NCBI GenBank assembly: GCA_013540605.1
Contig: JABVCK010000008.1
Coordinates: 1 to 64,000 of the forward strand
Direction: 5' to 3'
Length of the DNA: 64,000 nt
DNA from: Bacillota bacterium
GTDB lineage: Bacteria; Bacillota; Clostridia; Ch29
Position 1 is the first letter of the stretch; every line of letters starts with the position of its first letter. The notes under the pieces are model-generated. The model made no database searches, had not been told where the DNA came from, and saw only the letters and a program-made list of their open reading frames with translations. The position numbers were made by a program, and so were the translations under genes. This document shows positions 17,967-60,372 of this stretch, piece by piece.

Positions 17967-18354
17967 TACTTATAACCTTTATATAGATTTTCCTGTCTCT
18001 CGGCCCGTCAAACTCGCAAAAATAAACGCCCTGCCATGTCCCGAGCTTCAGTTCCCCATCTTCAATGGGTATTGTACACGATGCCCCCATCATCGAAGCC
18101 TTTATATGCGCGTGTGAATTGCCTTCTATATGCCTATATTCCTTACTGTCCGGGAAAGCTCTCCTAAGCCCCAATAGTATATCGTGTACAACGTCTGGAT
18201 CAGCGTTCTCATTAATAGTGACCCCCGCCGTCGTATGAGGGACGAATACAGTGACAATACCATCCTTTACACCACTTCTTTTTAACTCCTGCCTTACAAT
18301 GCCTGTAATGTCTATAAACTCGTCAGGCTTGGTCGTTTTTATTCTGTATATCAT
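17959..18354 (-). CDS. yjbQ: YjbQ-family protein (secondary thiamine-phosphate synthase type)
   Basis: A 131-residue, single-domain protein of the UPF0047/YjbQ family, with the signature VFVPHTTAGVTINE, the later H in NSHAHIKASMMG and EFDGPRDRKIYI at the C-terminus. The Escherichia coli member has weak thiamine-phosphate synthase activity in vitro; the physiological role is not settled. ATG 18354 begins the conserved part; a GTG at 18375 is possible. It stands alone, with the dispersed repeats downstream. Confidence 0.88.
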   Translation of the reverse strand: MIYRIKTTKPDEFIDITGIVRQELKRSGVKDGIVTVFVPHTTAGVTINENADPDVVHDILLGLRRAFPDSKEYRHIEGNSHAHIKASMMGASCTIPIEDGELKLGTWQGVYFCEFDGPRDRKIYIKVISTT

Positions 18355-18475
18355 GCCTTTAGCACAACCTTTCACGGCTATCCCATGTACACGTTATTTT
18401 GACATATAAGAATCTGTACAAATAAATCGGCCTATGCCGCTTTATTAGCTAGTGGGGATGTGAATAAGGGACAAC

Positions 18476-18790
18476 CTATAATCTAATCTTATCCACCAAA
18501 ATATCATCCAACTGCTTGCAGCCGGTCATAATCATAGTCTCTCAAAGCTCTGCACCTATTTTATTTGTGTGCAACTCGACTCCTTCGGCACCGCCTCCAT
18601 GGACAGCTATAACATAAGGCCTTCCAATCAAGACGGCATCTGCCCCCAAGGCCAGGGCTTTAAATACATCCGCACCTGATCCGATACCGCCGTCAACGAA
18701 GATCTTGAGCCAATCACCGACCGCCCGCCTGATTTCGGGGAGCACGGGGCAAGTTGCCGGAGTATCATCAAGCACTCTCCCTCCGTTGCT
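18476..18790 (-). pseudogene. Remnant of FMN-dependent alpha-hydroxyacid dehydrogenase
   Basis: The frame encodes the last quarter of an LldD/lactate oxidase-type enzyme: NGGRVLDDTPA, then LPEIRRAV and IFVDGGIGSGADVFKALALGAD, then IGRP. The substrate histidine usually found in SNHGGR is missing and the N-terminal three quarters are absent. An in-frame TGA at 18542-18544 interrupts the end; reading through it gives the normal tail (ETMIMTGCKQLDDI) to TAG at 18476. The gene is dead. Its upstream edge meets the transposase remnant at about 18785, which points to insertion followed by deletion. Confidence 0.8.
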
Positions 18791-19134
18791 AATTCTATAT
18801 TATATTCTTTTAATATTAAATGTCCAATATCTTTGTCGGACATGGTTTTCCTTTCTTGAACTACTTCAAGACATATATCGTTATTTAATTCCGTGTTAAA
18901 CTTACAAAATTCTTTAATGGCTTTACCCCTATCTTTATGGAACATCTCAAGTGCAAAGGCAGTATTGACAGTATTTGCTTTTATCGGCAAGTGTATATGA
19001 TTCTCCATCAGGCAATATGCATATATTTCATATTCAATCTCTTTTAAGGAATTAAAAAACAGGGGACTATCAATAAGACAAATAGAAAGGTTAACAGAGG
19101 TTAGCTTTGCTGTAGTAGGAAGGATATAACACAC
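18785..19134 (-). pseudogene. RAYT / IS200-like (Y1) transposase remnant
   Basis: The segment IYAYCLMENHIHLPI is the HUH-type transposase motif of REP-associated tyrosine transposases (usually AYCLMPNHVHLL). Later parts, EMFHKDRGKAIKEFCKFN and KTMSDKDIGHLILKEY, match the C-terminal tail of the family, but the central region with the catalytic tyrosine is missing, so the gene has an internal deletion. It is preceded by AGAACCGTCCCC at 19136, one of the dispersed words. It is probably a relic of the enzyme that mobilised one of the repeat families in this window. Confidence 0.75.
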
Positions 19135-19195
19135 AAGAACCGTCCCCTTGTGTTTGTTGTGTTTGTGTAGTGGTATAGTTGAGCGCTAGCATTTC

Positions 19196-19450
19196 CTACA
19201 ACAGGCCGAATCGGGGATAGAACAGGCTCACCAGGGCTGCTTTTCCCATCGACTTGGAGTGCAAATACAGCGGAAATGGGCCTGCGGCGATCAGCAACAG
19301 CATCGTTATTACCTCGAAGATCATCCGCCAGAACACCATGCCGATAAAGGACAGGCCTGTCTCCATGATCAGCTTGGAAAAAATGAACGAACTGCCGCCG
19401 ATGATGGAAGCCAGGGAACTGGAACAATAGGCTAGACGTTTCTTATTCAT
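19196..19450 (-). pseudogene. N-terminal fragment of an EamA/DMT-type permease
   Basis: The 84 codons start with a good-looking ATG and encode two hydrophobic segments (SIIGGSSFIFSKLI and GMVFWRMIFEVITMLLLIAAG), as at the start of EamA drug/metabolite transporters, which usually have ten helices and about 300 residues. The frame stops after FYPRFGLL and the rest is missing. The break lies beside the RAYT remnant and GGGGACGG repeats. Confidence 0.65.
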
Positions 19451-19480
19451 GTTTTACAACTTACCTGCAGCTTTATATAG

Positions 19481-19516
19481 TTAAGGGCCACTTACAAGAC
19501 GATAAGCGGCCCCTAA
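19481..19516 (-). terminator. Hairpin behind the symporter operon
   Basis: A 14-bp stem that is complete only on the minus-strand RNA (two G-U pairs; A-C mismatches on the other strand). It lies 54 bases after the small-subunit stop. No T-run follows, so it could be a 3'-end stabiliser rather than a terminator. Confidence 0.5.
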
Positions 19517-19569
19517 TCTATTTATAGCTGCTCCGCGGGGGAGTGAATTTACAATTCGGGCGATTATCC

Positions 19570-19743
19570 TTATTCCTCGTCATCCCACGGTTCGATGCCT
19601 AATTCTTGCATCTCCTTTAAAACCCGGTCCGAATACTTGGGCGCATGCTGACCACGTTTTTCCCGTATAGCAATGACGATTAGGTTCCTTGCCAGAAAAC
19701 CCCATACGAGGAAGCAGATCAGAATACCGGTCCAGATACCCAT
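19570..19743 (-). CDS. Small membrane subunit of NSS transporter (MetS-like)
   Basis: A 57-residue protein with one N-terminal membrane helix (TGILICFLVWGFLARNLIVI) and a charged cytoplasmic tail ending EPWDDEE. Short single-helix proteins of this kind are encoded directly after neurotransmitter:sodium symporter genes in many Bacillota and are annotated as MetS-type small subunits. The ATG lies 21 bases after the symporter stop, with AAAGGGGGGT as SD. Position, size and topology all fit; the subunit role is inferred. Confidence 0.8.
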   Translation of the reverse strand: MGIWTGILICFLVWGFLARNLIVIAIREKRGQHAPKYSDRVLKEMQELGIEPWDDEE

Positions 19744-19764
19744 AGTAATATAACCCCCCTTTCC

Positions 19765-21225
19765 TTAGTCAAGCACATTGGGAGCAGCGTCGCCGGGATG
19801 TTTTTTGGCATAGACGATGCCCAACCACATCAGCAACAGACAGGAAGCGATGGAGATCGCCAGACCGCCGACGCCCAGCAGGAAGCCCCACTTTTCCACC
19901 ACCGCGCTGTAGATCCAGAAACCCCAGATGATTAGCACCAGCAGTGGTTGGAGGTATTTGATGTCGAAGTTCCACCATTTCCCCACGTATATATCAGAAT
20001 AACAGTTCAGATATTTCAGACGGACCACGTTGATGTTGCGGGCATAGGCTACGGCCACATAGAGGATGATCATCGCGATAGGCAGAATATAGCAGCCAAC
20101 CCAGGTGTCGAACACGTCGATCCAGTTCGGTACGAAAGCGGCCGGAATGGAGAGCGCGGCGATGATTGCATAGAGGATGATGGAGAGGGTCTTGCGGTCC
20201 TTCTTCTTGAATTCGTCGGTCAGGTTGGTAATACCGACTTCCATGAAACCAAAGATGGTGGAGACGGCAGCCATGAACAGGGCCAGGAAGAAGATGATGG
20301 CGAAGAATTGGCCGCCGGGCATGTTCTGGAACACGGTGGACAGAGCCACGAAAGCCAGGCTGTAGCCGGAGGTGGTATCAAGGCCGTAAGCAAACACGGC
20401 AGGGAAGATGGCCCAGCCGGCCAGCAGCGCGACCGAGGTATCGGCCAGGCAGGAGGTCACATAGCTCAGTGGCATCTCGTCTTTCTTCTTCATGTAGCGG
20501 GCGTAAGTGGTATAGATACCCCAGTTGGGACCGATGGAGAACAACACCTGGGAAAGGGCCATGATCCAGGTCACGGGCTTGAACACCATGGACCAGTCGG
20601 TGTCCATATAGAAGCTGATGCCTTCGGACGAGCCGTCCAGGTTGAGGCCGCGGATACCGAGGATGATAAGGCTCAAGAACAAGCAGGGAGCCAGGATTTT
20701 GTTGACTTTTTCGATACCGGCCTTGATGCCCTTCACACTGACGAAGCAGCACAATCCAAGGATAAGAACGGATATAATAGCGATCAGCCAGGTCATATCG
20801 CCGGTACCGTTGGCATAGATGGAATCCCACAGTAGCGCTGGGTCGGCATTCATCAGCGTACCCTTGACGGCGTAAGCCAGATAAGCGAAGGTCCAGGCGC
20901 AGATGACGACATAATAAGACGCCACGCCGGTGGACAGGATGGTAGTGATGAAGCCGTTACCAGTGAGATTCTTATTGGCAGCACGGTAAGCGCCGATAGT
21001 ACCTTTTCTCGTCACTTTACCGAGAATCGCTTCCGCCCATTCACCGGGGATGGCCACCAAAAACAGCAGGATAAGATAGGGGATCAGGAACGCCGCGCCG
21101 CCGTATCTGCCGACCAAATTCGGGAAACGCCATACGTTGCCCAGACCGGCCATAGCCATGGCCGCAGCAATGATGTAACCTACACGGGTACCCCATCGCT
21201 GGTTGTTACTGTTTTTGTCACTCAT
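19765..21225 (-). CDS. Neurotransmitter:sodium symporter (NSS/SNF) family transporter
   Basis: A 486-residue protein with about twelve membrane helices and the NSS hallmark at the N-terminus: GTRVGYIIAAAMAMAGLGNVWRFPNL, with the unwound TM1 containing GLGNVWRFP. These symporters use the sodium gradient to import amino acids. An SD AAAGGAGG lies 10 bases before the ATG. It is encoded 35 bases after a cobalamin-dependent mutase-like enzyme and 21 bases before a MetS-like subunit, so it probably imports that enzyme's amino-acid substrate. The three genes are more GC-rich than the flanks, which suggests acquisition as a block. Confidence 0.93.
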   Translation of the reverse strand: MSDKNSNNQRWGTRVGYIIAAAMAMAGLGNVWRFPNLVGRYGGAAFLIPYLILLFLVAIPGEWAEAILGKVTRKGTIGAYRAANKNLTGNGFITTILSTGVASYYVVICAWTFAYLAYAVKGTLMNADPALLWDSIYANGTGDMTWLIAIISVLILGLCCFVSVKGIKAGIEKVNKILAPCLFLSLIILGIRGLNLDGSSEGISFYMDTDWSMVFKPVTWIMALSQVLFSIGPNWGIYTTYARYMKKKDEMPLSYVTSCLADTSVALLAGWAIFPAVFAYGLDTTSGYSLAFVALSTVFQNMPGGQFFAIIFFLALFMAAVSTIFGFMEVGITNLTDEFKKKDRKTLSIILYAIIAALSIPAAFVPNWIDVFDTWVGCYILPIAMIILYVAVAYARNINVVRLKYLNCYSDIYVGKWWNFDIKYLQPLLVLIIWGFWIYSAVVEKWGFLLGVGGLAISIASCLLLMWLGIVYAKKHPGDAAPNVLD

Positions 21226-21260
21226 GTTGACAGTTACCTCCTTTGTTATAATATATTAAA

Positions 21261-23027
21261 TCAATTCTTGTTACCCATCTGCTTGATTATTTCAAGGAAG
21301 TCCTGATTAGTGTTGATACCCAAAGCTGTAATCTCATCTGTGACATCTACCGGCAGTTCCTCTCCCTCGCGGCCCTGGTTCAGCTTTCCGCCCATGAAGA
21401 TCTGCGCCGTGCAGCCGACCCGATCCAGCTCCTTTTTCAGCTGAATGGCAAATTCCAGCGCGCCGCCGTTATGGGTGCTCACGGCAATTGCGTCGACCTT
21501 ATTCGCCACGGCAGCCTCGGCGATATCGTCCGGATTCTGCTCCACGCCCAGATAAACCACGTTGATGCCGAATTCTTTAAAGATGCTGCGCATGATGAAT
21601 AGAGCATGTTCGTGCACGTCGGTGGCGGCCAGCAGGGCGGTAACCGGCTTGTCTACCGGCTGCAGACCCCGCTGATGCAGGTCAAAGAGCCACATATCGG
21701 TGATGTCGTTGGTATGCCGGAACACGTCAGTCTGGTAAACCGGACGGTGTCCGCCGGGAGCGGCCGGATCCTCCGATCCCACGGAGAAGGTGTTTTCTAG
21801 CCGGCGCGCACCGAGCTTTTTCAGCACATACAGCATCTGTACAGGATCGCCTGTGTCCACACCGGCCTCAGCCAGCCCGGCCAATACCGCCTTGGCAAAA
21901 CGGCGGCCGCCGCCAACGATACGGTCCTTGATCTGATAGCACTCGGTGAAATCCACGTAATTTACCAGCCTGCGTGCTGCTTTTTCCATCTCCCGGGCAA
22001 ACAGCTGTACTTCGATGATCTCGTCAACATTGGGGATGCGGATGCCTTCGCTGAAGGGCGGCGGCATGATGGCGTGACCGGTGGGGCACTTCAACTGCGC
22101 CATGATGTCCCACAACAGGTATTGGGCCGCAATAGTGCGATTGTGATTGACGTCCGGTCCGCTACTGATGGTGTCGCCGTAAAACATCGTGCCGCAGCAA
22201 TCGTTGTCAAAGATATCGTTTAGGGCGAACACCCAGGCCGCACGTACCTGCGGCCTGGTGGTCACGCCGCCGAAACAGTGGCCCAGACGGGCTCCGATCA
22301 AGTCCTCAACGATATACCGTTCCAGGATCGCCCAGCCGGCGATACTGGCGTAATCGTTGAACAGGGAAGCCAGACCGTCGTCCAGATAGGAATGGACGAT
22401 CGTGCCCTCATCTTTTTTGCCCGCCATGATGCCCATAGCCTTAACCGTTGCCATCGTGGTATACTCGTCATCTTTCCACATGGGCGCTTCGTGGGCAAAA
22501 TACTGGGACAGGTTGCCGATGGTGGTGACGCCGGCTTTCAGCGCCAGCAAAGTGTTTTCCACCGAGGCTGGGAAACCGATCATGAAGTCGCCTGTATGAG
22601 GCTGGATGGGCACCAACTGCCCCAGCTGGGTCCACTGCTCATCATTTTCCAGGCGGGGGCCCGTCTCCCGGGCAATCTGACCGCGCAGCTCCTCCGGCAG
22701 GCTCATGCCGCGCTCCAGACAGAGACCGTAGCGGTCGATGCGGTACCCGGCGCCGTCAATAGCGTCATACAGCTTGTGCAGGGCGTCGACGGTTTCTTCC
22801 CAGTGGTCGAGGCCGATATGCGCATGATACATGATGCGGCCTTCCCGTTTCATTTTCTGTTTGTACTCATATTCAGAAGAAACGCCGTACTTGTCAAAGA
22901 ACAGCGTTCTGCCGATCTGCAGCTCAGCGGCCATCGCCTTTCCTTCCGCTACGATTCGGCGTCCGTCCGGTAGATCGGCAGCAGACAGAATGCGCTGAAC
23001 TTCCGCAGTAAAGTCAGAGTTTCCCAT
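21261..23027 (-). CDS. Cobalamin-dependent mutase-like protein with fused B12-binding domain
   Basis: The protein has 588 residues. The C-terminal 130 residues are a B12-binding domain: DVHEHA at residues 470-475 (base-off/His-on motif DxHxxG with alanine in the last place), VSTHNGG and FMGGKLNQ. The N-terminal 450 residues look like a TIM-barrel catalytic part distantly similar to the glutamate mutase epsilon subunit (FMIGFPASVENTLLALKAG, GDTISSGPDVNHNRTIAAQYL). Known glutamate mutases keep the two parts on separate chains. Substrate unknown; the neighbouring sodium:amino acid symporter points to an amino acid. SD AAGGAG precedes the ATG. No cobalamin riboswitch seen upstream. Confidence 0.75.
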   Translation of the reverse strand: MGNSDFTAEVQRILSAADLPDGRRIVAEGKAMAAELQIGRTLFFDKYGVSSEYEYKQKMKREGRIMYHAHIGLDHWEETVDALHKLYDAIDGAGYRIDRYGLCLERGMSLPEELRGQIARETGPRLENDEQWTQLGQLVPIQPHTGDFMIGFPASVENTLLALKAGVTTIGNLSQYFAHEAPMWKDDEYTTMATVKAMGIMAGKKDEGTIVHSYLDDGLASLFNDYASIAGWAILERYIVEDLIGARLGHCFGGVTTRPQVRAAWVFALNDIFDNDCCGTMFYGDTISSGPDVNHNRTIAAQYLLWDIMAQLKCPTGHAIMPPPFSEGIRIPNVDEIIEVQLFAREMEKAARRLVNYVDFTECYQIKDRIVGGGRRFAKAVLAGLAEAGVDTGDPVQMLYVLKKLGARRLENTFSVGSEDPAAPGGHRPVYQTDVFRHTNDITDMWLFDLHQRGLQPVDKPVTALLAATDVHEHALFIMRSIFKEFGINVVYLGVEQNPDDIAEAAVANKVDAIAVSTHNGGALEFAIQLKKELDRVGCTAQIFMGGKLNQGREGEELPVDVTDEITALGINTNQDFLEIIKQMGNKN

Positions 23028-23071
23028 GGTTCACGCTCCTTGTATAAAAAGCTTTTAAACAGTCATTAGGT

Positions 23072-23109
23072 GATAATCAAATAATATTAATTAATCATAA
23101 TTGATTATT
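23072..23109. promoter_or_regulatory. Long AT-rich inverted repeat, probable operator
   Basis: GATAATCAA at the left is mirrored by TTGATTATT at the right, 38 bp overall, 45 bp ahead of the mutase start codon. It is the best candidate target of the FCD regulator encoded at 23226-23942. Confidence 0.5.
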
Positions 23110-23225
23110 AGCTAATAAAATGTTATCATCTTAGAGCGAGGATGTCAATGAAGTTTTTTGCTAAAATTCGAATATTATACGCTGGAAACCATAAAAAATC
23201 GACAGGCTCATATGAGCCTGTCGGA

Positions 23226-23942
23226 TCAGCGTTTGTTGTAGTCCTTCAAATCCAATACGTAACTTCTGGAACGGTTGATGTGGTCATACAGCAAACGTTT
23301 GGCTGTTTTGGCGTCCCGTGCTTTAACGGCAGAGACGATCATTTCATGCTCCGCAACCTGAGTTGCCAGAACTTCTTCTTTTTCCACGATCTGTGAAAAG
23401 ATATTGTGGGCATTGTTCTGGGCCAACAGTAGGACGCAGATGTTTTGCAGCACGTGGTTGCCGGACATTTCCGCCAGCAGCAGGTGCATCTGCATACCGG
23501 GCTCGTCGCCCATGCTACCGCGGGAGACCTGCAGCTTATATTCCAATACGGACTGATCCAATAAGCGGAACTGCTCCTCAGTACCATAGCGGCAAGCCAG
23601 CTCAGCCGCCCGGGGTTCCAATAACAGCCGCACGTCCATGATGTCGATCAGCGTTTCCTTTGATAAGTTCAGGTGGATATTGGCCAGCTTATCCGCAGAA
23701 TCCCGCAGAGACTGTCTTTGCTCGGCCTGCGCAAGAAATTCTTCTCCCATTGGGGTAAGTATCCGGCCTTTGACTCCGACCTTACGAATGAGCTGTTCGT
23801 TTTCTAGCTCGATCAGTATTCGGCCAATAGTGGCAGAAGCGGCATCCATCTGCTCTGCCAGATAAATGGAGCCTACCGGGATACCGCACTGCTTCATTAA
23901 AGTCAGGATCTGGATTTTCTCTTTTTCCTTATTGTTCTTCAT
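23226..23942 (-). CDS. FCD-domain transcriptional regulator (GntR/FadR type)
   Basis: A 238-residue protein with an N-terminal winged helix (VGSIYLAEQMDAASATIGRILIELENEQ) and a C-terminal FCD domain (DVRLLLEPRAAELACR, then MQMHLLLAEMSGN and a late DHINRSRSYV). The helix-turn-helix is a little unlike classical GntR. It lies upstream of the mutase/symporter genes in the same direction with a 198-bp gap that holds the inverted repeat, so it probably regulates them in response to the imported compound. ATG 23942 has only a weak SD, so the start is less sure. Confidence 0.85.
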   Translation of the reverse strand: MKNNKEKEKIQILTLMKQCGIPVGSIYLAEQMDAASATIGRILIELENEQLIRKVGVKGRILTPMGEEFLAQAEQRQSLRDSADKLANIHLNLSKETLIDIMDVRLLLEPRAAELACRYGTEEQFRLLDQSVLEYKLQVSRGSMGDEPGMQMHLLLAEMSGNHVLQNICVLLLAQNNAHNIFSQIVEKEEVLATQVAEHEMIVSAVKARDAKTAKRLLYDHINRSRSYVLDLKDYNKR

Positions 23943-23987
23943 TTAAGTTTACTATAACCTCTTTTCCAAAAAACTTTTTGCATCTTA

Positions 23988-24040
23988 ATTATACAATTTA
24001 TCTTACATTATACAATTTATCTTACATTATACAATTTATC
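23988..24040. repeat. Tandem repeat, 19 bp x 2.8
   Basis: Three copies of ATTATACAATTTATCTTAC (the last cut to 15 bp) lie 46 bp upstream of the FCD regulator start. The unit contains the word TTATACAATTTAT, and the array could be a multi-site operator or part of the regulator's promoter region. Confidence 0.75.
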
Positions 24041-24119
24041 AAAGAATGCGTCAACCACGCATTATTCCCCGATAGCGTCAACCTTTTGAAGGAAAAATGT
24101 TACCCCGCATTTAGAATGT

Positions 24120-24262
24120 TTACCACCGTGTCTGCTGCAGCGCTTTCAGTGCAGTATAAGTTCCGCTGCTCTTTCCAATTGATAGCACAGGGATATTATT
24201 AAGCTTTTCTAAACCGGCTGCTGTCTTAATTCCAATACTTCTCAAGACCCTCTTATCCAATA
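24120..24262 (-). pseudogene. Degraded coding remnant, family not recognised
   Basis: The minus strand has a 40-odd-codon frame with protein-like composition (GIKTAAGLEKLNNIPVLSIG, then KSSGTYTALKALQQ) ending at TAA 24120-24122. There is no start with an SD; its upstream side meets a GGGACGGTTCT repeat at 24277. Farther up, an SD and ATG (24334) open a 14-codon frame that stops inside the repeat region. This suggests a gene broken by repeat insertion, but I cannot name it. The rest of 24041-24589 shows no gene. Confidence 0.35.
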
Positions 24263-24589
24263 AATTTAGTAAATTTAGGGACGGTTCTTTATTTTACATT
24301 TCTACCCTTCAGAGTAACACTTACGGTTGGCATTGAAAACCCTCCGCAAAGCTCTCCTTTGTCTTTTTTATAGCACTGTACCCTGGGATATAAGTGGGAC
24401 GTCCCTATTTGTCCTTTATCTAAATAAAAAGAAACTTATTGCGCCCATTGCCGTCTAATTTAAAAGCTGCATTTCGATCAATCTTCTATATAACTTGAAG
24501 CTAATCAGGCCTGAAGATAATTGTTCTAATCAGAAAAACATGCTAAAATCAAATGTGGTTGTATTTTCATGAATAAAATAGGAGTTATT

Positions 24590-25282
24590 ATGGGTGATAA
24601 AACGATAAAAATCAGAAAAAAGAAGCTGTTCATCGGATTGCTTGTCTTAATGTCAGTCAGTATATTGGCATTGGTATCCGTATTGATTATAAATGCCCAT
24701 GTTAAGTCATCGGTTAAAGATAAAATTATTGCGGTAGATGAGGCAGCCTCGTTAGATGCCGATTGTATCCTTATTCTCGGCGCAGGTGTGTGGGGTGACG
24801 GAAGACCAAGCCACATGCTTGAGGATAGGCTTTTACAGGGTATCGAACTATACAAGAAGGGAGCTTCCGGCAGGCTGCTGATGAGCGGCGACCACGGCAG
24901 AAAAGAGTATGATGAGGTCAATACCATGAAGCAATTTACTATTGACAGAGGTATTGTTTCAGAGCATGTTTTTATGGATCACGCAGGTTTCTCTACATAC
25001 GAAAGCCTGTATCGTGCAAGAGATATTTTTGAAGCCCACAAGATTATCATTGTAACGCAGAAATATCATTTGTACCGTGCGCTGTATATTGCTGAAAAGC
25101 TGGGTCTTGAAGCGTATGGTGTTGCCTCTGATCTGAGGCAATATGCTGGACAAGAATTTAGGGATTTGAGAGAAATATTGGCAAGAGTAAAAGATTTCTT
25201 TAATGTGATTATTAAACCTAAGCCCACTTATCTTGGGGAAGCCATACCGGTAAGTGGAAACGGTGATCTGACAAACGATTAG
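24590..25282 (+). CDS. SanA/YdcF-family (DUF218) membrane-anchored protein
   Basis: A 230-residue protein with one N-terminal membrane helix (KKLFIGLLVLMSVSILALVSVLI) and a DUF218 domain: CILILGAGVWGDGRPSHML, MSGDHG, and VTQKYHLYRALYIAEKLG. SanA relatives affect envelope barrier function and vancomycin exclusion; biochemical function is unclear. ATG 24590 is chosen because AGGAG stands 5 bases upstream; ATG 24569 has no SD. It stands alone between repeat-rich stretches. Confidence 0.85.
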   Translation: MGDKTIKIRKKKLFIGLLVLMSVSILALVSVLIINAHVKSSVKDKIIAVDEAASLDADCILILGAGVWGDGRPSHMLEDRLLQGIELYKKGASGRLLMSGDHGRKEYDEVNTMKQFTIDRGIVSEHVFMDHAGFSTYESLYRARDIFEAHKIIIVTQKYHLYRALYIAEKLGLEAYGVASDLRQYAGQEFRDLREILARVKDFFNVIIKPKPTYLGEAIPVSGNGDLTND

Positions 25283-25335
25283 CCGGTTAAAAGCCAACCC
25301 AGGAATATATGTCGGGAAAGCTGATTTGTAGGCAA

Positions 25336-25620
25336 TTAAATAGATAGAATAAGAAATCTGCCTATAAATGCATCGGGGACATCCCGCGGCAAGGAATACC
25401 CGCGTAGCAGCGGTGTGTCCCCATACCTTAAGGCAGCGGTGTGTCCCCTTTCCTTAAAGTTTGTCAATTTGTCAAGCCTGACCCCATTACTTGCACGATA
25501 GGGCATTGTCAAACAAAGAACCGTCCCCTGTTCTACGAATACACTTGTTGCGAAGATGGATGCCATGGCGATAATGGAGAGTGCAAATGCCATTATTTTA
25601 TGTATTATTTTATGTATCAT
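25336..25620 (-). pseudogene. Secreted-protein gene truncated by repeat elements
   Basis: ATG 25620 has AAAGGTGG at ideal spacing and starts a clear signal peptide (MAFALSIIAMASIFATSV). After about 32 codons the frame enters the GGGGACGG word (25517-25528) and then the REP-like element, where its translation is repeat-derived. It is probably a small secreted protein whose body has been replaced by repeats. Confidence 0.4.
25375..25460. repeat. REP-like element, long copy
   Basis: GGGGACATCC at the left and TGTGTCCCC at the right bracket a GC-rich core containing GCGGCAAGGAATACC and GCAGCGG. The right half (GCAGCGGTGTGTCCCC) is repeated once more directly after. Both ends run into CCTTAA(AG). 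Same family as 403, 39006 and 63067. Confidence 0.75.
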
Positions 25621-46888: not shown

Positions 46889-48730
46889 CTACCAGGTCAA
46901 TCGCAGTTTTTCAAGGGTCTCCTGTTTCGGTATGCCGTCATCGTCCCATCCCCTTGCTGTATAGTACTCATTCAGCATCCTGCCCAGATGGGGCAGATTG
47001 CCCTTTGCCCCGCCCTCTCTCCTAGGCTGGGAGAGTATCCTCGGCGGCAGGGTGTCGTCCTTCCTGCTTATACCGCACTTCACGTTGTACATCCGCTTCA
47101 GGTTAAAAACCCTGTCTCCAATTTCCATTAATTCCTCAAAACCGATATCCCACCCCACAACATACTTGAGCCATTCCCTCATGTGCGTTGTCCTTACCCC
47201 GCCGTACAACAGGAACTTGCACAGCTTAAGGGAATCCATAAGGCACATGATATTCTGGGTGTTTTTCTGGAACTCTCCCTGGTCGTCAAGCCTGTGCCTG
47301 TCCTTTGGTTCCGGTATCCCCAGCTCCGGCATTGTCGCAGTCTTCTCGAAGAAATAGCTTGCTCCCTGGAGATGGCATGCGCCCCTGTTGGAAGTCGCAT
47401 ACCCCAGCGCAAGGCTGTTATACGCCCTCGGGTCGTGGGCGGGGAATTCCAGTCCCTTAACGTGAATGGCATATTCTACAGCCCTTCCGCCAATGCGGGC
47501 AGCCGCTTCCCTTACCCCGTTTCCCAGCAGCTCTCCTATGCCTTCCTTCCTGCCTATCCTGTGTATCATCTCAACCATAGCTTCCGCATTTCCCCAGGTC
47601 AGTTCTATTCCCCCGGTATCATCAATCCCTATCAGGCCCTTTTCGTATAATTCCATCGCAAAGGCTATTGCGCTCCCGGTGGATATGGTATCGATCCCAT
47701 ACCTGTTGCATAATTCGCTCCCATGAGCTATTGCCTCCAGGTTATCCACAAGGCACATCCCGCCAAGGGTACCGATTGTTTCATATTCAGGGCCGGCGCC
47801 GCCCGTCACAAAGGGGCCTTCCTTAACCTCCACTTCCCGGCCGCAGCCAATTATACAGCTCTCACAGAAATATCTCCCCGTAAGTATGGTCTCGGTCATG
47901 CGCTGGCCGGATACATTTTCGATTTTATCCCATGTTGCGCCGGACCAGTTTTTCAGCGGGAAATCCCCTATGGCCTCGGTACCGATAACCCCGGCTGCGG
48001 TTCCATGCTGCTTTATGGCATTGGTATTCTTGACTATACCGGGAGCGATATCCTTTATGCTTTGCTTCAACCCGTTTTCATCAGCCACTTTCACCGTACG
48101 GCTTCCGGATACCACAACAGCTTTGAGCTTCTTCGAACCCATCACCGCTCCCAGGCCGGTCCGTCCCACCGCCCTTGCATCCTTTCCGTCGTGCATGATA
48201 GAAGACAGCTTCACCAGTTTCTCCCCCGAGGGTCCTATGCAGGATACCGAAACGGCTTCCCCGTGCCTTTCCTTTATCAGCCTGTCCGTCTCATAGGTAT
48301 CCTTTCCCCATATAAAACCGGCATCCTCCAAACTGGCCTTTCCCTCTTCAATCAGTATATAGACCGGTCCACCGGACTGCCCTTCGATAACAATACCGTC
48401 AAAGCCACACCTCTTCAGCCCGGCACCCCAGGTTCCCCCCACATCGCCTTCTCCGTATATTCCGGTAAGGGGTGATTTTGCGATAATCTGATGCCTTCCG
48501 GAAGTCGGTACCGGCGTACCCGCAAAGGGTCCTGTCATATATATAAGTGGATTCCCAGGCCCAAGGGGGTCGGTTTTCTCGTCGGTCATATCGTATAAGA
48601 GCCTTGCTCCTATACCGCTGCCTCCCAGGTACTTCCTCAGCAATTCTTCCGGCAGAGTTTCCTCCCGGATTTCTTTTTTCTCAAGATCTACCCTGAGTAT
48701 TTTCCCGCAGTATCCTCCTAACACACTCAT
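46889..48730 (-). CDS. Aldehyde:ferredoxin oxidoreductase family protein (tungsten/molybdenum)
   Basis: A 613-residue AOR-family oxidoreductase: N-terminal tungstopterin-binding domain (GGSGIGARLLYD, GRHQIIAKSPLTG), 4Fe-4S ligands CESCIIGC with a last cysteine in KLCKFLLYGG, and pterin motifs (GTLGGMC). Family members oxidise aldehydes to acids with ferredoxin. Which aldehyde is unknown. ATG 48730 and GTG 48724 are possible starts behind GAGGAGGG. A MoaD-like gene precedes it by 23 bases, presumably to supply sulfur for the pterin cofactor. Confidence 0.92.
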   Translation of the reverse strand: MSVLGGYCGKILRVDLEKKEIREETLPEELLRKYLGGSGIGARLLYDMTDEKTDPLGPGNPLIYMTGPFAGTPVPTSGRHQIIAKSPLTGIYGEGDVGGTWGAGLKRCGFDGIVIEGQSGGPVYILIEEGKASLEDAGFIWGKDTYETDRLIKERHGEAVSVSCIGPSGEKLVKLSSIMHDGKDARAVGRTGLGAVMGSKKLKAVVVSGSRTVKVADENGLKQSIKDIAPGIVKNTNAIKQHGTAAGVIGTEAIGDFPLKNWSGATWDKIENVSGQRMTETILTGRYFCESCIIGCGREVEVKEGPFVTGGAGPEYETIGTLGGMCLVDNLEAIAHGSELCNRYGIDTISTGSAIAFAMELYEKGLIGIDDTGGIELTWGNAEAMVEMIHRIGRKEGIGELLGNGVREAAARIGGRAVEYAIHVKGLEFPAHDPRAYNSLALGYATSNRGACHLQGASYFFEKTATMPELGIPEPKDRHRLDDQGEFQKNTQNIMCLMDSLKLCKFLLYGGVRTTHMREWLKYVVGWDIGFEELMEIGDRVFNLKRMYNVKCGISRKDDTLPPRILSQPRREGGAKGNLPHLGRMLNEYYTARGWDDDGIPKQETLEKLRLTW

Positions 48731-51956: not shown

Positions 51957-53360
51957 CTATCTCTGTTTCGGCATGTGTATAGCAATTTTGTCAACCGCAA
52001 GGGCTGACTCCAGAATTGCCTCTCCAACGGTCGGATGGGCATGTATTGTAGTGATTATCTCATCGATCGTTGCTTCCAGTCTTAGGGCAAGAGCTCCTTC
52101 CACAATAAGGTCGGTTGCCCTCGGACCCAATATATGAACGCCCAACACCTCATTATACTTTTTGTCCGCAACTACCTTTACCATTCCTTCCACATCCCCC
52201 ATAATCAAAGACTTTCCATTCGCAACAAGGGGAAACCTTCCTACCTTCACGTCATAACCCTTTTCCATGGCCTGTTTTTCGGTTAATCCGACCCCGGCCA
52301 TTTCAGGCTGGGTATATATGCAGCCCGGCACCGTCTTATAATCCATTAAGCTGTTATGTCCAGCTATATTTTCAGCAGCTACTACTCCCTGATAAGATGC
52401 CACGTGAGCCAGCATGGCTTTGCCGGTGCAGTCTCCTATGGCATAAATATTCTCTATATTTGTCTTCATTCTGTCATCTACGACTATTCTGCCTCGGTCC
52501 GTTTCAACGCCGATCTTTTCTAAGTTTAGACCCTCGGTGTACGGCTTTCTCCCCACCGAGACCAGGACTTTCTCCGCTGTATCCGAAATCTCCTGCCCGT
52601 TATGGGTAAAAGTCACCTCAAGCCCGGATGCCCGTTTCCCGATAGAAGTCACCCTGGCGCCGGTATAAAACTTCACACCCTTTTTAGCTAAAACGTTTCG
52701 GAGCATCCCTGCCAGCTCCTCGTCCATGTTAGGAATAATCTGGGGCATCATTTCCACCACTGTCACTTTGCACCCAAGGCTTGAATAAATGCCGGCGAAC
52801 TCAACTCCTATAACCCCACCGCCTATTATCACCATGCTTTCCGGCACACTGTCAAAGCTAAGGGCTTCGGTACTTGTAGCAACCCCCGGCTGTTCAACTC
52901 CCTGTATGGGAGGAACAAAGGGTACCGAACCGGCAGCGATTATAAATTCGTCCGCAGCTATGTTTTCTTTTCCGCCGCCGCTCAGGCTAACCTCCACCTC
53001 CTTTGTACCCACAAAGGATGCGGTACCGTGAACCACCTTCACCCCGTTTGAAAGAAGCAGTCCCTTTACACCGCCAACAAGCCGGTTCACTACCCCTTCC
53101 TTCCTTCTCATCAGCGCAGGCCAGTCAACCTCAAATTTATCCACTTTGAGGCCTATACCGGCCGCTTCCTTAAGCTGGTTATATATCTCTATGGTGTGGA
53201 GAAGCACCTTGGTCGGTATGCAGCCCACGTTCAGGCAGGTGCCGCCCAGTTTTTCCTTTTCTATGAGAGTAACCCGGCCGCCGAGCTGGGCTGCCCTGAT
53301 AGCAGCGACATAACCGCCCGGGCCTCCCCCAATCACTACTATATTCCGATTGTTTTCCAT
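51957..53360 (-). CDS. acoL: Dihydrolipoamide dehydrogenase (E3)
   Basis: A 467-residue FAD flavoprotein that re-oxidises the dihydrolipoyl group of E2 with NAD+. FAD motif GGGPGGYVAAIRAAQLG, redox disulfide GGTCLNVGCIPTK, second nucleotide motif GGGVIGVEFAGI, GDCTG, and the C-terminal HAHPTVGEA catalytic pair. SD GGGAGGG precedes ATG. It is the last gene of the operon, 12 bases behind E2, and is dedicated to this complex. Confidence 0.93.
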   Translation of the reverse strand: MENNRNIVVIGGGPGGYVAAIRAAQLGGRVTLIEKEKLGGTCLNVGCIPTKVLLHTIEIYNQLKEAAGIGLKVDKFEVDWPALMRRKEGVVNRLVGGVKGLLLSNGVKVVHGTASFVGTKEVEVSLSGGGKENIAADEFIIAAGSVPFVPPIQGVEQPGVATSTEALSFDSVPESMVIIGGGVIGVEFAGIYSSLGCKVTVVEMMPQIIPNMDEELAGMLRNVLAKKGVKFYTGARVTSIGKRASGLEVTFTHNGQEISDTAEKVLVSVGRKPYTEGLNLEKIGVETDRGRIVVDDRMKTNIENIYAIGDCTGKAMLAHVASYQGVVAAENIAGHNSLMDYKTVPGCIYTQPEMAGVGLTEKQAMEKGYDVKVGRFPLVANGKSLIMGDVEGMVKVVADKKYNEVLGVHILGPRATDLIVEGALALRLEATIDEIITTIHAHPTVGEAILESALAVDKIAIHMPKQR

Positions 53361-53372
53361 TTCAGTCCCTCC

Positions 53373-54683
53373 CTATAGTAAAAGCAGTACCGGGTTCTCC
53401 ATGATCTCCTTGACTCTGGCCAAGAATTTTGCCCCATCAGCGCCGTCTATCATCCTGTGGTCAATTGTGAGGCTCAGATTCATGATAGGCCGCACCACAA
53501 CTTCCCCGTTCACCACAACCGGCCTGTCCACCATTGCGTTAACTCCAAGGATTGCGGATTCAGGCTGGTTGATTATGGGTGTGAATGTGGTTATCCCGAA
53601 CATTCCCAGGTTGGTAACCGTGAATGTGCCTCCGCTTATCTCATCCTTCGTCAGCCTGTTGTTCTTCGCCTTCTCGACGAGCTGGTCGGTTTCTGCAGCA
53701 ATTTCCAGCAGGGATTTTGTCTGCGCCGCCTTTACGTTGGGAACAATCAGTCCTCCATCGAGGGCGACCGCAAGGCCGACGTTGGCATTGCCGTGAAGTA
53801 TTATCTCTTCACCGTCAAAGCTTGCATTTACCATTGGGTATTCCATCAACGCCTTTGCACAAATCTTGATTATGATGTCGTTGAAGGACAGCTTTGCGCC
53901 ATGGGCTTCACAGGCATCCTTAAGACTTGCCCTGAATGATTTAAGCTGTGATGCATCCACTTCAATGTTTAAAGTAACCATAGGAGCAGTGTGCCAGCTC
54001 TGGCTCATCCTTTCGGCTATAACCCTCCTCATACCACTCGGAGCAACCCTTCTGTCTTCAGCGGCGGCAGTGGTCTTCCTTGCTGCTGCCAGGACATCAT
54101 CCTTCATGATCCTGGATTCCTTGTCTATGCTTTCCAGGTCAACCCCGAATTCCTTCGCAACCTTTGCTGCAACGGGCGATACCTTCTTAGCCCTGTTATC
54201 CTGCAGATAAGCATAAACGTCCTTTTCAACGATTCGGCCTTCGGGCCCTGTGCCTTTAACCATAGACAGGTCAACCCCGTTGTCCCTGGCGTATTTCTTT
54301 GCCGCCGGCGACGCCTTGATAAAGCCCCTGCCGGCTTCAACATTTAGCTCCCTGCTCTTCTCCGGCTTGGCCTCAGCCTTAGGTTCTGCGGTGCTTTCCG
54401 GCACTTCAGCGCCGCTTTCCGAAAGCAGGACGCCAATATCCTCGTTTTCCTCCGCAATAATAGCAATGGGTGCGGTCACTCCCGCCGAGCCGCCCTGTTC
54501 AACAAGTATCTTCCTGACTACCCCTCCGGCAGGAGCTTCTACCTCGTTTGTAATCTTATCGGTGGAAACCTCGAGCAGGATTTCTCCCTGTTCCACCCTT
54601 TCCCCTTCTGCCTTATACCACTTTGAAACCGTTCCCTCTGTCATGGTCAGTCCGAGTTTCGGCATTGTCACTAGTGTTGCCAA
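53373..54683 (-). CDS. acoC: Dihydrolipoamide acyltransferase (E2)
   Basis: A 436-residue E2: one lipoyl domain (lipoyl lysine in STDKITNEV near residue 43), a linker, two peripheral-subunit-binding-like domains (ASPAAKKYARDNGVDLSMVK, about 125-160; VSPVAAKVAKEFGVDLESID, about 170-205) and the acyltransferase core ending in DHRMIDGADGA with the catalytic histidine. Two E3/E1-binding domains in one chain are unusual. The start is TTG 54683 with GGGAGGG ahead. It transfers the acyl group, probably acetyl, to CoA. Confidence 0.92.
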   Translation of the reverse strand: MATLVTMPKLGLTMTEGTVSKWYKAEGERVEQGEILLEVSTDKITNEVEAPAGGVVRKILVEQGGSAGVTAPIAIIAEENEDIGVLLSESGAEVPESTAEPKAEAKPEKSRELNVEAGRGFIKASPAAKKYARDNGVDLSMVKGTGPEGRIVEKDVYAYLQDNRAKKVSPVAAKVAKEFGVDLESIDKESRIMKDDVLAAARKTTAAAEDRRVAPSGMRRVIAERMSQSWHTAPMVTLNIEVDASQLKSFRASLKDACEAHGAKLSFNDIIIKICAKALMEYPMVNASFDGEEIILHGNANVGLAVALDGGLIVPNVKAAQTKSLLEIAAETDQLVEKAKNNRLTKDEISGGTFTVTNLGMFGITTFTPIINQPESAILGVNAMVDRPVVVNGEVVVRPIMNLSLTIDHRMIDGADGAKFLARVKEIMENPVLLLL

Positions 54684-54723
54684 TTTGTTATCCCTCCCTT
54701 GAAGATGTTCTATATATAGTGCG

Positions 54724-56007
54724 CTACTTCATACCCATAATATTAGGCAGCCACAATGAAACTGCGGGGAAGTAGGTAATTATCATCAGAGCAATGAATG
54801 AAGCTATAAGGAAAGGAGTCAGGGCCCTTGATATTTCCTTCAATGAGATCTTGGAAATTCCGCAGGCTACATACAGGTTAACGCCAACCGGCGGTGTTAT
54901 CTGCCCTATTGCCAGGTTAACCGTCATCATTACTCCGAAGGCTATCGGGTCGTATCCAATCTGCAGGATAGTAGGAAGAAGAATTGGGACCAGTATCATG
55001 TAAGCGGAAATCGCGTCGATAAAGCATCCTGCAATCAGCAGCAGTACATTTATTACAAGTAATAGAACGTATTTGTTGCTGGAAATATTCAGCAACAAAT
55101 TGCTGGCAGCGGTGGCAATCCCCTCGGTGGTTACAATCCATGCAAATAGACTGGCGTTGGCGACAATCAGCATTACAACGGCGGAAGACACCGATGAATC
55201 TACCAGGATCGTCATAAACTCTTTCCACTTGATCTTTTTGTATATGAATACTCCCACAAACAAGCCATAGATAACAGCAACGCCGGCTGCTTCGGTCGGT
55301 GTGAAGATACCGCCGTAGATTCCCCCAAGAATTATCACTGGAGTAAGGAGACCCCAAAAGGCACCCTTGAAGGCCACCATCACCTCCCGGAAGGAGGCCC
55401 TGCTCTGCTGCCCGTAATCTTTATTATATGAAATAATGAGAGATGCAACTATTAGTGCGGCGCCAACCACCAGCCCTGGAACTATACCGGCAATAAACAG
55501 CCTGCCTATCGATACCTCTGCAATCATACCGTAAACTACAAAGGCAATACTCGGTGGTATGATTATTCCTATAGCTCCGGAGGTTGCGAGTAATGCGGAG
55601 GACATCCCCTTCCCGTATCCCGCCTTTGTCATTGCCGGGATGAGTATAGCGCCAAGGGCTGCCACCGTTGCAGGCCCCGAACCGGATATAGCGGCAAAAA
55701 AGCATGATGTAATAACTGCAACAATAGCCAGACCTGCGGTTAAATGCCCTACAGCCTTATTGGCAAATTTTATCAATCTCTCGGAAATTCCGGATTTTTC
55801 CATAATAATTCCGGCTAATATGAAGAAGGGAATCGCCAGCAGGGTAAATTTGCCGGTGGATGCTGCTATTATCCTTGGAAACATGCTCAGTGGCACTCCT
55901 GTCATAAACAATGCAACAATACTGGAAAGGCCCAGAGCAATAGCAATCGGTACGTTCAGAAACAGCAGAATACCAAAAACTATAAATAGTACGGCGGATA
56001 CTGACAT
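54724..56007 (-). CDS. dctM: TRAP transporter large permease (DctM)
   Basis: A 427-residue membrane protein with about twelve helices and the DctM features: LNVPIAIALGLSS at the N-terminus, AISGSGPATVAALG and GAIGIIIPPSIAFVVYG in the two hairpin regions, and the late NLAIGQITPPVGVNLYVACG. It forms the sodium-driven import channel with DctQ. The ATG is directly behind the DctQ stop, with AAGGAGG as SD. Confidence 0.93.
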   Translation of the reverse strand: MSVSAVLFIVFGILLFLNVPIAIALGLSSIVALFMTGVPLSMFPRIIAASTGKFTLLAIPFFILAGIIMEKSGISERLIKFANKAVGHLTAGLAIVAVITSCFFAAISGSGPATVAALGAILIPAMTKAGYGKGMSSALLATSGAIGIIIPPSIAFVVYGMIAEVSIGRLFIAGIVPGLVVGAALIVASLIISYNKDYGQQSRASFREVMVAFKGAFWGLLTPVIILGGIYGGIFTPTEAAGVAVIYGLFVGVFIYKKIKWKEFMTILVDSSVSSAVVMLIVANASLFAWIVTTEGIATAASNLLLNISSNKYVLLLVINVLLLIAGCFIDAISAYMILVPILLPTILQIGYDPIAFGVMMTVNLAIGQITPPVGVNLYVACGISKISLKEISRALTPFLIASFIALMIITYFPAVSLWLPNIMGMK

Positions 56008-56481
56008 TTAGTTCCCCTCCTTTTTCATAAATTCCATTACCCCTAATTGTATAAACCTTACTATCAATGAAAAGGCTCCGATAGGAACCGCCATGCCGAA
56101 TATCCATTCAGGCCATCCCAGTGCCGGTGAAGTCTGCCTGAACCGCATCTGGGACTGGACCATGTTGATTCCGTATCTAAATAGCATAGAAAAAAGAATA
56201 ACAGCGCAGATAACACTAAATAAAGTAACAAATTTCTGATATTTTTTGGGAATGAAATCTGTAAATACACTAAGGCCAAGATGGCTTCCTCTTTTGGCAG
56301 CAACCGCTGCTCCAAGCAAGCTTGTGAGAACAAACAGGTTTGTTGTGATCTCTTCGGTAAATGCCCATGAAGCATGCAGGAGGTACCTGGAAACCACATT
56401 TGCAAAGTTAATAGTTGCCATTATCAGAAGGCCTATCCCTATAATATATTCTTCAATGTTATTTAAGAACTTTCTTAACAC
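56008..56481 (-). CDS. dctQ: TRAP transporter small permease (DctQ)
   Basis: A 157-residue protein with four membrane helices; the second is preceded by the conserved ANVVSRYLLHASWAFTEEI motif and followed by KRGSHLGL, both typical of DctQ. Start GTG 56481 with GGGGGTG upstream. It partners DctM. Confidence 0.9.
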   Translation of the reverse strand: MLRKFLNNIEEYIIGIGLLIMATINFANVVSRYLLHASWAFTEEITTNLFVLTSLLGAAVAAKRGSHLGLSVFTDFIPKKYQKFVTLFSVICAVILFSMLFRYGINMVQSQMRFRQTSPALGWPEWIFGMAVPIGAFSLIVRFIQLGVMEFMKKEGN

Positions 56482-56524
56482 AGTTACACCCCCCTGTGAT
56501 TTTTCCTTTCTAGGTTAGGCCGCA

Positions 56525-56549
56525 AGCCCTGAGGTAATACCCCAGGGCT
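56525..56549 (-). promoter_or_regulatory. Intercistronic hairpin between dctP and dctQ
   Basis: On the minus-strand RNA AGCCCTGGGG pairs with CCTCAGGGCT (one wobble) over TATTA. There is no U-tract. It probably protects the 3' end of the dctP segment or lowers read-through so that the binding protein is made in excess over the permease. Confidence 0.6.
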
Positions 56550-56582
56550 CACTGTCTAAAGTTCCTTACCTAGAGCTAACTA

Positions 56583-57608
56583 CTATCTGAACAGATCTAA
56601 CAGTTCCTTACCGACTATAGGTTCATACTCGTCGTATACCGGCTTAACCTTTTCCTGGAACGCTTTAATCTGCTCGTCTGTCACCTCGGTGACCTGCATG
56701 CCCTGCTCCTTGAAGAAGGCAAGCTGGTCTTCTCCATTGGCCCTGTTTAGCTCAACCTGGTATTCACAAGCCTCAATTGCAGCCTGCCTGAGTATATCCT
56801 GGGTCTCCTTGTCGAAGCTTTCAAACTTGTCCTTGTTCATTCCCAATATTATTGCGTCATAGGAGTAGTTCCACAATGAAATATACTTCTGAACTTCGTA
56901 CAGTTTTGCCGAGTGAATTACATCCAACGGGTTTTCCTGACCGTCAATTGCGCCCTGCTGCAGTGAGGTAAACACTTCTGCAAAGTTCATCGCTGTCGGG
57001 TCAGCGCCCAAGGCTTTATACAGCGATATATACATCTTGATACCCGGAACTCTGATTTTTAAACCTTTCATGTCGTCAGGAGTTGCTATGGGCCTTTTAT
57101 TGTTGGTAATCTGCCTGAAGCCGTTTTCACCAAATCCTAAAGCAACTACGTTCTTTTCCAGCAGGAGTTCTGCAACCTTCTCACCGCCTGCTCCCTTTAT
57201 TTTCTCATCAGCCTTTTCATAGGTGGGAAGCAGCCACGGCAGGCTTATTACGCCGAATCTCTCATCCATTATTGAGTATATTATGTTTGAGTGGAAAGAC
57301 AGATCGGTAGCTCCGGTCATAAGCATTTCTATACCCTTACCCTGGTTGCCGCCTGAAAGCTGCTCGTTCGGATATACATTAACTTCAACCTTGCCATTGG
57401 TTCTTTCCTTAACCAGTTCAGCAAACTTATAAGCACCCTTTGTCCAGGAAGAACCTTCGGGAGTGGTTACACTCATCTTGAGAATTACCGGCTTAACCTC
57501 TTCCTTGGGCTGTCCTCCTCCGTCGCTTGGCCCTTTTTGGGCACAGCCTGCCACCAGTGAAACTACCATCAAAATCGCTAGCATCAAGACTAGACTCTTC
57601 TTTAACAT
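56583..57608 (-). CDS. dctP: TRAP transporter substrate-binding protein (DctP)
   Basis: A 341-residue lipoprotein: signal with lipobox VAGC, then a DctP fold with LKMSVTTPEGSSWTKGAYKFAELV, the ligand arginine in KGLKIRVPGIK (conserved position for carboxylate binding) and EVFTSLQQGAIDGQENP. It captures a carboxylate outside the membrane. The adjacent dehydrogenase complex suggests that the ligand is a 2-oxo- or hydroxy-acid, or that the complex works on its product. SD GGAGG precedes ATG. Confidence 0.93.
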   Translation of the reverse strand: MLKKSLVLMLAILMVVSLVAGCAQKGPSDGGGQPKEEVKPVILKMSVTTPEGSSWTKGAYKFAELVKERTNGKVEVNVYPNEQLSGGNQGKGIEMLMTGATDLSFHSNIIYSIMDERFGVISLPWLLPTYEKADEKIKGAGGEKVAELLLEKNVVALGFGENGFRQITNNKRPIATPDDMKGLKIRVPGIKMYISLYKALGADPTAMNFAEVFTSLQQGAIDGQENPLDVIHSAKLYEVQKYISLWNYSYDAIILGMNKDKFESFDKETQDILRQAAIEACEYQVELNRANGEDQLAFFKEQGMQVTEVTDEQIKAFQEKVKPVYDEYEPIVGKELLDLFR

Positions 57609-57715
57609 TCTTTTTCCTCCTTTTATTCAAATTATTGTCGCTTGCCCGATTCGTTTCCGACTATACTATACCGGTTATCACCCCCATTAATGTGTAAAAT
57701 CAATATTACGCATTA

Positions 57716-58189
57716 TTAGTATGGTTTGAACAGAGGGAATCCTGTCTCTTCATCATAACTCCTGACCAGCCTGATGTTATCCAACTCTTGTATAACTGCC
57801 TCGATGGTCGCCAGAACGGGATTACCGCCTTCAACAAAGTGCCCCGCATATACCTTCATATCCTTGTTACTGACAACCCCGTGAAAATGTATCATAGCCT
57901 CTTCCCTGTCAGATATTCCAATAACACCCTGACCTCCAATAAACTCCAGAGGCCCTTCCACCTCCACGGGCTGGCTGTATCTGATACCAAGCTTTCCTTC
58001 TTTGTCGGGAACAGCATAAACAAATCTTGCTCTGGTCAGGCTGCCTATGACGGTTGAAACTACCGCGTACCTTATGGAATTATCCGCACAGGCCTCCAAT
58101 ATCCCTGTCAGCAAATCTGTACCGGGCTGCAGCCTTATAAATAGCACCCTTCCGGTTTTTGCTTCCCTGGAAACATAGCTATTCCTCAC
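57716..58189 (-). CDS. PPC/DUF296-domain protein
   Basis: A 157-residue PPC-fold protein. The metal-site histidines are visible in MIHFHGVVSN and AGHFVEGG. PPC proteins otherwise occur as plant AT-hook partners and as small bacterial proteins of unknown function. It starts with GTG 58189 (GGGGA ahead) and lies between E1-beta and dctP, so it may serve the pathway, perhaps as a small lyase or sensor. Confidence 0.8.
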   Translation of the reverse strand: MRNSYVSREAKTGRVLFIRLQPGTDLLTGILEACADNSIRYAVVSTVIGSLTRARFVYAVPDKEGKLGIRYSQPVEVEGPLEFIGGQGVIGISDREEAMIHFHGVVSNKDMKVYAGHFVEGGNPVLATIEAVIQELDNIRLVRSYDEETGFPLFKPY

Positions 58190-58204
58190 TCGGAAACATC
58201 CCCT

Positions 58205-59176: not shown

Positions 59177-59189
59177 GCACTCCACCTCC

Positions 59190-60155: not shown

Positions 60156-60256
60156 AGCAGTCACCTCCCTTTTTTCATGGCCCTTAACGCCCATATAACC
60201 GTTTCCCTCCCTCCGTTTGTTGTATTATTTTGTTGCCTTGTATATTTCTTATTAAT

Positions 60257-60272: not shown

Positions 60273-60372
60273 AAGTGCATAAATGCTATCTACTAAATAG
60301 AACCGCCACCGATATACTTTATTTTACCTGCTTTGCAGCTATAACCTAACGGATATTTTTTGCCTCAGTAAA

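Follow-up and report, generated by a model that had tools for sequence, protein, structure and literature searches.

A single-chain, glutamate-mutase-like B12 protein of a Bacillota genome as a probable adenosylcobalamin-dependent radical isomerase

A gene on the (-) strand of a 64,000-nucleotide stretch of a Bacillota genome (GCA_013540605.1, contig JABVCK010000008.1, positions 1 to 64,000; here called the window) encodes a single-chain, mutase-like protein of 588 amino acids at 21261..23027. A barrel with a glutamate-mutase E-like predicted fold is fused to a C-terminal B12-binding domain, and the family to which the protein belongs is not named by Pfam or NCBIfam. We consider it highly likely that the protein is an adenosylcobalamin (AdoCbl) radical isomerase, very probably of the base-off/His-on type and distinct from the glutamate, CoA, lysine and ornithine mutases. 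It likely acts on an amino acid or a close derivative, and, more tentatively, the product in the window's clade may form a pyrroline. The explanation as a whole, in which functions like those of GlmE and GlmS are carried by one chain of a separate family, is one we favor with moderate confidence. It is based on the predicted fold, the cofactor-site residues, a missing PLP-anchoring lysine, and gene neighborhoods, from which we infer the radical chemistry, substrate import, and sensing described below. Known AdoCbl mutase reactions are few, and new classes of substrate are seldom found.

Domain architecture and predicted fold

The open reading frame is genuine, with exactly the coordinates given by the first-pass annotation, which had also claimed a C-terminal B12 domain. 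This domain is confirmed by the Pfam B12-binding model, which covers residues 467–549 (E 9e-13). The Rossmann B12-binding domain as delimited by its match to GlmS (1i9c) spans residues ~459–588 (21264..21653, (-)), and the barrel, delimited by VIA alignment to 1cb7_B (1–469), spans residues ~18–438 (21714..22976, (-)). No Pfam family matches residues 1–460, even at E 10, and NCBIfam gave only sub-cut-off matches, all to the B12 domain, leaving the barrel uncovered by any Pfam or NCBIfam model. A sequence search of the PDB matched the B12 domain confidently and found no credible match for the barrel. Literature searches found no paper on the family.

A single AlphaFold2 model was built from a five-sequence alignment (pLDDT 78.7, pTM 0.80) and compared with solved structures using Foldseek, with VIA structural alignment as a second look. 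By Foldseek alone, the top matches are methylmalonyl-CoA mutases, a preference that, for this predicted model, fits the placement of barrel and B12 domain on one chain; in VIA, these enzymes have lower Z scores of 15–17.7. The best VIA match is glutamate mutase E (1cb7_B) with a Z score of 25.3 over 365 residues and an rmsd of 3.4, and the GlmE barrel is aligned over nearly its whole length. The barrel of lysine 5,6-aminomutase (5,6-LAM) comes second (Z 24.1). Ornithine 4,5-aminomutase (OAM) follows at a Z score of 19.9 with a large whole-chain rmsd, probably because the two domains are positioned differently. The C-terminal domain matches GlmS (1i9c) with a Z score of 15.8 over 125 residues at 25% identity. 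The glutamate-mutase-like barrel proposed in the first-pass annotation is thus borne out by predicted structure and not by sequence. In HHalign comparisons with the profiles of KamD and GlmE, the 13-member family profile showed no significant link for the barrel, and forced alignments were uninterpretable except for a C-terminal stretch of KamD, which aligns the Glu motif described below. The suggested misfit to the methylmalonyl-CoA, glutamate, lysine and ornithine mutase families is supported, as the protein fits none of them.

Family members and the cofactor site

Full-length relatives are found in Sinanaerobacter (61% identity to the window mutase), in Maritalea, an Osedax symbiont and an Oceanospirillaceae bin (43–46%), and in four Bacillota genomes; plasmid-borne relatives occur in Phyllobacterium, Neorhizobium, Sinorhizobium, and Shinella (36–38%). 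Several Shinella plasmids are near-copies and were counted once. The family is represented in Bacillota, in Alpha- and Gammaproteobacteria from the sea, and on plasmids of rhizobia, and its sequence is well conserved across phyla. It is rare, with members in 3 of the 398 genomes of a Bacillota phylum sample, the window's own among the three (a second draw of this sample gave the same genomes as the first). None of five same-family genomes has a relative, and none was found in viral contigs. A maximum-likelihood tree shows four well-supported clades: A, with the window, Sinanaerobacter, and the marine Proteobacteria; B, with the rhizobial plasmids; C, with three Bacillota genomes that have GlmL, the glutamate-mutase accessory protein; and D, with two paralogues in one genome. 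A relative on Rhizobium lentis plasmid p1 (L077, 8734–9699) was left out of the analysis. It comprises the C-terminal part only, is annotated as DUF1349, lies beside an IS66 element, and is probably a broken copy.

The signature of base-off/His-on AdoCbl mutases (D-x-H-x-x-G, Ser at +42, GG) is present with Gly/Ala variation: the D-x-H, the Ser at +42 from the Gly/Ala, and the GG ~29 residues beyond are kept in 13 of 13 members. In the family alignment, the window mutase has DVHEHA at residues 470–475 (21603..21620, (-)), with the cobalt-ligating His472 kept and the Gly of DxHxxG replaced by Ala. This had been singled out as an odd cofactor motif, a view that did not hold up. All five clade A members have DVHEHA and the other eight have DxHxxG; since the Ala occurs throughout clade A and nowhere else in the set, it is a trait of one clade and not decay. 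We also rejected the motif as a sign of lost B12 binding, because the His is kept and relatives carry DxHxxG.

Near the end of the barrel, the sequence S-E327-x4-P332 (22032..22052, (-)) provides a counterpart of the Ado-ribose Glu of glutamate mutase (GM Glu330), OAM (Glu338), and methylmalonyl-CoA mutase (MCM Glu370), equated with GM Glu330 by motif and predicted strand order and not by residue-level structural alignment. In those enzymes, the Glu contacts the adenosyl group and favors Co–C cleavage (PMC4413051, PMC3958899). The Glu-x4-P motif is found in all 13 family members, 15/15 GlmE, 15/15 KamD, and 5/5 OraE sequences. A barrel with an Ado-ribose Glu, the second feature of base-off/His-on enzymes, is therefore present, the barrel by fold match and the Glu by motif only. 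In glutamate mutase, an arginine claw (R66, R100, R149) binds both substrate carboxylates; by strand order alone, only R40, in clade A, is a possible match to R66.

The VIA scores of the 5,6-LAM and OAM barrels (Z 24.1 and 19.9), together with the amino-acid context, would suit a PLP- and B12-dependent 1,2-aminomutase related to ornithine 4,5- and lysine 5,6-aminomutase. In B12 aminomutases, the PLP-anchoring Lys follows the cobalt His at a distance of 11 residues (OAM His618/Lys629; also Lys144). This Lys is present in 5/5 OraE sequences but absent from 13/13 family members, the window mutase having F483 instead, and there is no match to Lys-AminoMut_A. With the anchoring Lys missing, we dropped the aminomutase as scarcely credible. 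Retention of Glu-x4-P and of the His signature, combined with the absence of this Lys, makes an AdoCbl radical isomerase that works without PLP very probable.

We also weighed two other functions, that of a corrinoid methyltransferase and that of a cobalamin sensor without catalytic activity. The B12 domain shows resemblance to MetH and to corrinoid proteins as well, methyltransferase genes lie near one clade C relative (L034), and the DVHEHA motif is altered. However, the match of the barrel to AdoCbl mutases extends over 365 residues, the GlmL partners and the Glu327 motif are typical of mutases, and the sequence is well conserved across phyla, making either function very unlikely.

Gene neighborhoods

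In the window, a sodium:amino acid symporter of the SNF/NSS family (19765..21225, (-); Pfam SNF E 1.7e-61) lies 35 bp behind the mutase on the same strand, and the two probably form an operon. Its closest solved relative is MhsT (177 bits), and it qualifies as the SNF/NSS large subunit of a MetPS-type transporter. Directly behind it, a 57-aa ORF with one hydrophobic stretch (19570..19743, (-)), read from sequence only, is possibly a small transporter subunit. It matched no Pfam or NCBIfam model and does not qualify as a MetS small subunit, so the earlier label "MetS-like" reflects position and size only. Upstream of the mutase is an FCD-domain transcriptional regulator (23226..23942, (-); Pfam FCD E 7e-21). 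The ~200 bp gap between them holds a terminator-like hairpin, GACAGGCTCATATGAGCCTGTC, followed by T6 (23193..23222, (-), read directly), so the FCD gene is probably its own transcription unit. The symporter and the regulator are both as the first-pass annotation described them. An Rfam search over window positions 18000–25500 found no B12 riboswitch and no other RNA.

The GC-rich block noted earlier exists, though it is moderate. The mutase has a GC content of 0.572 and a GC3 of 0.705, and the symporter a GC3 of 0.731, against 0.475 ± 0.035 (GC) and 0.539 ± 0.066 (GC3) for the 41 other long ORFs of the window. Together with the patchy spread across phyla, this contrast fits horizontal transfer. 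Of the idea of a transferable module, the patchy occurrence is borne out (0/5 same-family genomes, 3/398 in the phylum sample); the transfer itself is something we infer.

Decayed pieces lie behind the symporter at window positions 18541–19450. They include a truncated ORF that looks EamA-like by eye (19199–19450) and a weak Y1-transposase match (18631–19134). A broken frame there resembles, by eye, an FMN-dependent 2-hydroxyacid enzyme and is a frame-shifted remnant. Further along the window, inspection by eye shows an acetoin/2-oxoacid dehydrogenase-like cluster (E3, E2, E1 beta, E1 alpha) at 51957–62506, in which TRAP-transporter genes separate E2 from E1 and which also has an AcoR-like sigma-54 activator, and an ORF resembling a tungsten aldehyde ferredoxin oxidoreductase at 46889–48730. 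Elsewhere in the genome, a full alpha subunit of lysine 5,6-aminomutase, KamD, is encoded at G000:C8:73118-74641 (L040, L075; 917 bits to PF09043), near an apparent lysine 2,3-aminomutase.

The pairing of mutase and symporter was seen in the window only. We compared nine clade A and B loci, partly related to one another, and the recurrent partner is instead a gene for a pyrroline-5-carboxylate-reductase-like (ProC-like) protein, present at all eight loci other than the window; the module as first proposed, mutase plus symporter, does not recur. The window is the only one of the nine without a ProC-like neighbor. The ProC-like gene directly precedes the mutase in Maritalea, the Osedax symbiont, and Oceanospirillaceae, lies in the same run in Sinanaerobacter, adjoins the mutase in Phyllobacterium, is ~1–2 kb off in Sinorhizobium and Shinella, and is ~7 kb away in Neorhizobium. 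One locus (L003) is a bare ProC–mutase pair. Another (L004) is a four-gene run of mutase, YkvI-type transporter, ProC, and a proline-racemase-family gene, and in a third (L024), mutase and ProC diverge from a cluster of racemase, DapA-like, D-amino-acid dehydrogenase, and ALDH genes. A GntR/FCD regulator often accompanies the ProC-like partner in clades A and B. Transporters vary, and at several loci those nearby are of amino-acid or peptide type. Five of the ProC-like proteins (L001, L002, L003, L025, L027) share 28–59% identity among themselves but only 17–24% with the ProC of Sinanaerobacter and that of the window's genome, so the substrate of these five may be a pyrroline different from P5C.

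Since an imine reductase of this kind stands beside the relatives' mutases, the product in the window's clade may close to a pyrroline, and the symporter points to an amino acid as substrate. The same partners, at 8/9 clade A/B loci, raise a different prospect, an eliminase-like B12 enzyme that would turn a hydroxy amino acid or a hydroxylated cyclic one, such as a hydroxyproline, into a pyrroline for ProC by ring opening or dehydration. The proline-racemase-family gene of L004 and the racemase/DapA-like/D-amino-acid-dehydrogenase/ALDH cluster of L024 agree with this, as does the host of L002, a symbiont of the bone-eating worm Osedax, bone being rich in collagen. To our knowledge, the His-on, GlmE-like architecture is that of mutases and unlike known B12 eliminases. 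Furthermore, the L024 racemase-family protein and the ProC-like proteins of L001 and L025 fall below curated cut-offs, and clade C has a glycyl radical enzyme in addition to the mutase. In the eliminase's favor, B12-dependent and glycyl-radical versions both exist for three diol dehydrations (PMC8473912). On balance, we judge an eliminase unlikely. We give a similarly low probability to the proposal that clades A and B perform a new type of B12 reaction, the radical isomerization or opening of an amino acid of the proline family (or a hydroxylated one) that yields a pyrroline for the ProC-like reductase. If true, the reaction would be an oxygen-tolerant B12 counterpart of the glycyl radical hydroxyproline dehydratases in marine proteobacteria and on rhizobial plasmids.

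In clade C, GlmL adjoins the mutase in all three relatives (L034, L037, L038). Each is the sole GlmL-family gene found in its genome, and one scores above the NCBIfam GlmL cut-off. A GlmL-family gene also occurs elsewhere in the clade D genome (G371). In the window's genome, a search that was positive in four control genomes found no GlmL-family gene. Two clade C genomes of the window's class share one module (L037:1-15834 and L038:520-18501) with an aminotransferase, a 2-oxoacid:ferredoxin oxidoreductase, a 4-hydroxybutyryl-CoA-dehydratase-like protein (577 bits to 1u8v in L037), the mutase, GlmL, a glycyl radical enzyme with its activase, a transporter, and, by eye, DUF362-type and IclR-type genes. 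The L037 glycyl radical enzyme is closest to glycerol dehydratase and HplG. The gene content of the module suggests an amino-acid fermentation route, so far undescribed, that would end in crotonyl-CoA. In clade D, the two paralogues (L035, L036) have DAHYYG and each lies behind an aldehyde dehydrogenase, followed by an EamA-type transporter. With such different partners in clades C and D, the family need not have one common substrate. A hydantoinase/oxoprolinase-family protein with a weak MutL match sits beside L035. At L034:1140-2537 (G179:C313), we observed a bacterial homologue of the monomethylamine methyltransferase MtmB (174 bits to 1l2q) in an ordinary open frame, with Thr at the position of residue X (pyrrolysine) of solved MtmB; nearby are a corrinoid protein, a methyltetrahydrofolate methyltransferase, a tryptophanase-family lyase, GlmL, and the family mutase.

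The GlmL pairing and the GlmE-like fold would also fit a carbon-skeleton mutase of the 2-methyleneglutarate-mutase type, single-chain and acting on a C5–C6 dicarboxylate, that moved into an amino-acid context. There is a known single-chain precedent, as 2-methyleneglutarate mutase of Eubacterium barkeri is a single-chain AdoCbl carbon-skeleton mutase of similar size. However, the neighborhoods that we read hold no obvious nicotinate-fermentation gene set, and an amino-acid symporter and ProC-like partners misfit a dicarboxylate, so we think this unlikely. Should 2-methyleneglutarate mutase fall inside the family, the novelty would shrink to that of a new member.

Proposed reaction and comparison with known systems

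In the radical isomerase that we favor, the B12 domain would bind AdoCbl base-off, with His472 on the cobalt, and close on the barrel, and this closure together with Glu327 would promote Co–C cleavage. The 5'-deoxyadenosyl radical would then abstract a hydrogen from a small amino-acid-type substrate held in the barrel. The substrate radical would rearrange without PLP and without a CoA thioester, after which the hydrogen would be returned. Import of the substrate is the probable role of the symporter, and sensing it or a product that of the FCD protein. Several points speak against this explanation: no GlmL was found in the genome, no ProC lies beside the window's mutase, HHalign gave a null result, clades C and D have other partners, and DVHEHA is off consensus. 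The partner genes, namely the ProC-like reductase, GlmL, the glycyl radical enzyme, and the transporters, make the substrate question testable.

Methylmalonyl- and isobutyryl-CoA mutases resemble the window enzyme in having barrel and B12 domain on one chain and a conserved Glu (Glu370), and they are the top Foldseek matches. They differ in that the window enzyme has no MM_CoA_mutase Pfam match, reaches a VIA Z score of only 15–17.7, and has no acyl-CoA-mutase or G-protein partner genes that we saw. 2-Methyleneglutarate mutase shares the single chain and has a similar size; the family's neighborhoods lack an obvious nicotinate pathway. KamDE and OraSE share the barrel (Z 24.1 and 19.9), the Glu-x4-P motif and, in OraE, a C-terminal His-on B12 domain, but the window enzyme lacks the PLP-anchoring Lys and a PF09043 match. 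Glutamate mutase has two chains where the window enzyme has one; the latter has no PF06368 match at E 10, a non-significant HHalign score to GlmE, a Gly-to-Ala change in the His motif, and other gene partners. It nonetheless shares with GlmE and GlmS the barrel (Z 25.3), the B12 domain (Z 15.8), Glu-x4-P, the His-on spacing, and, in three relatives, an adjacent GlmL, and this single-chain enzyme would serve as a model for the two-subunit glutamate mutase.
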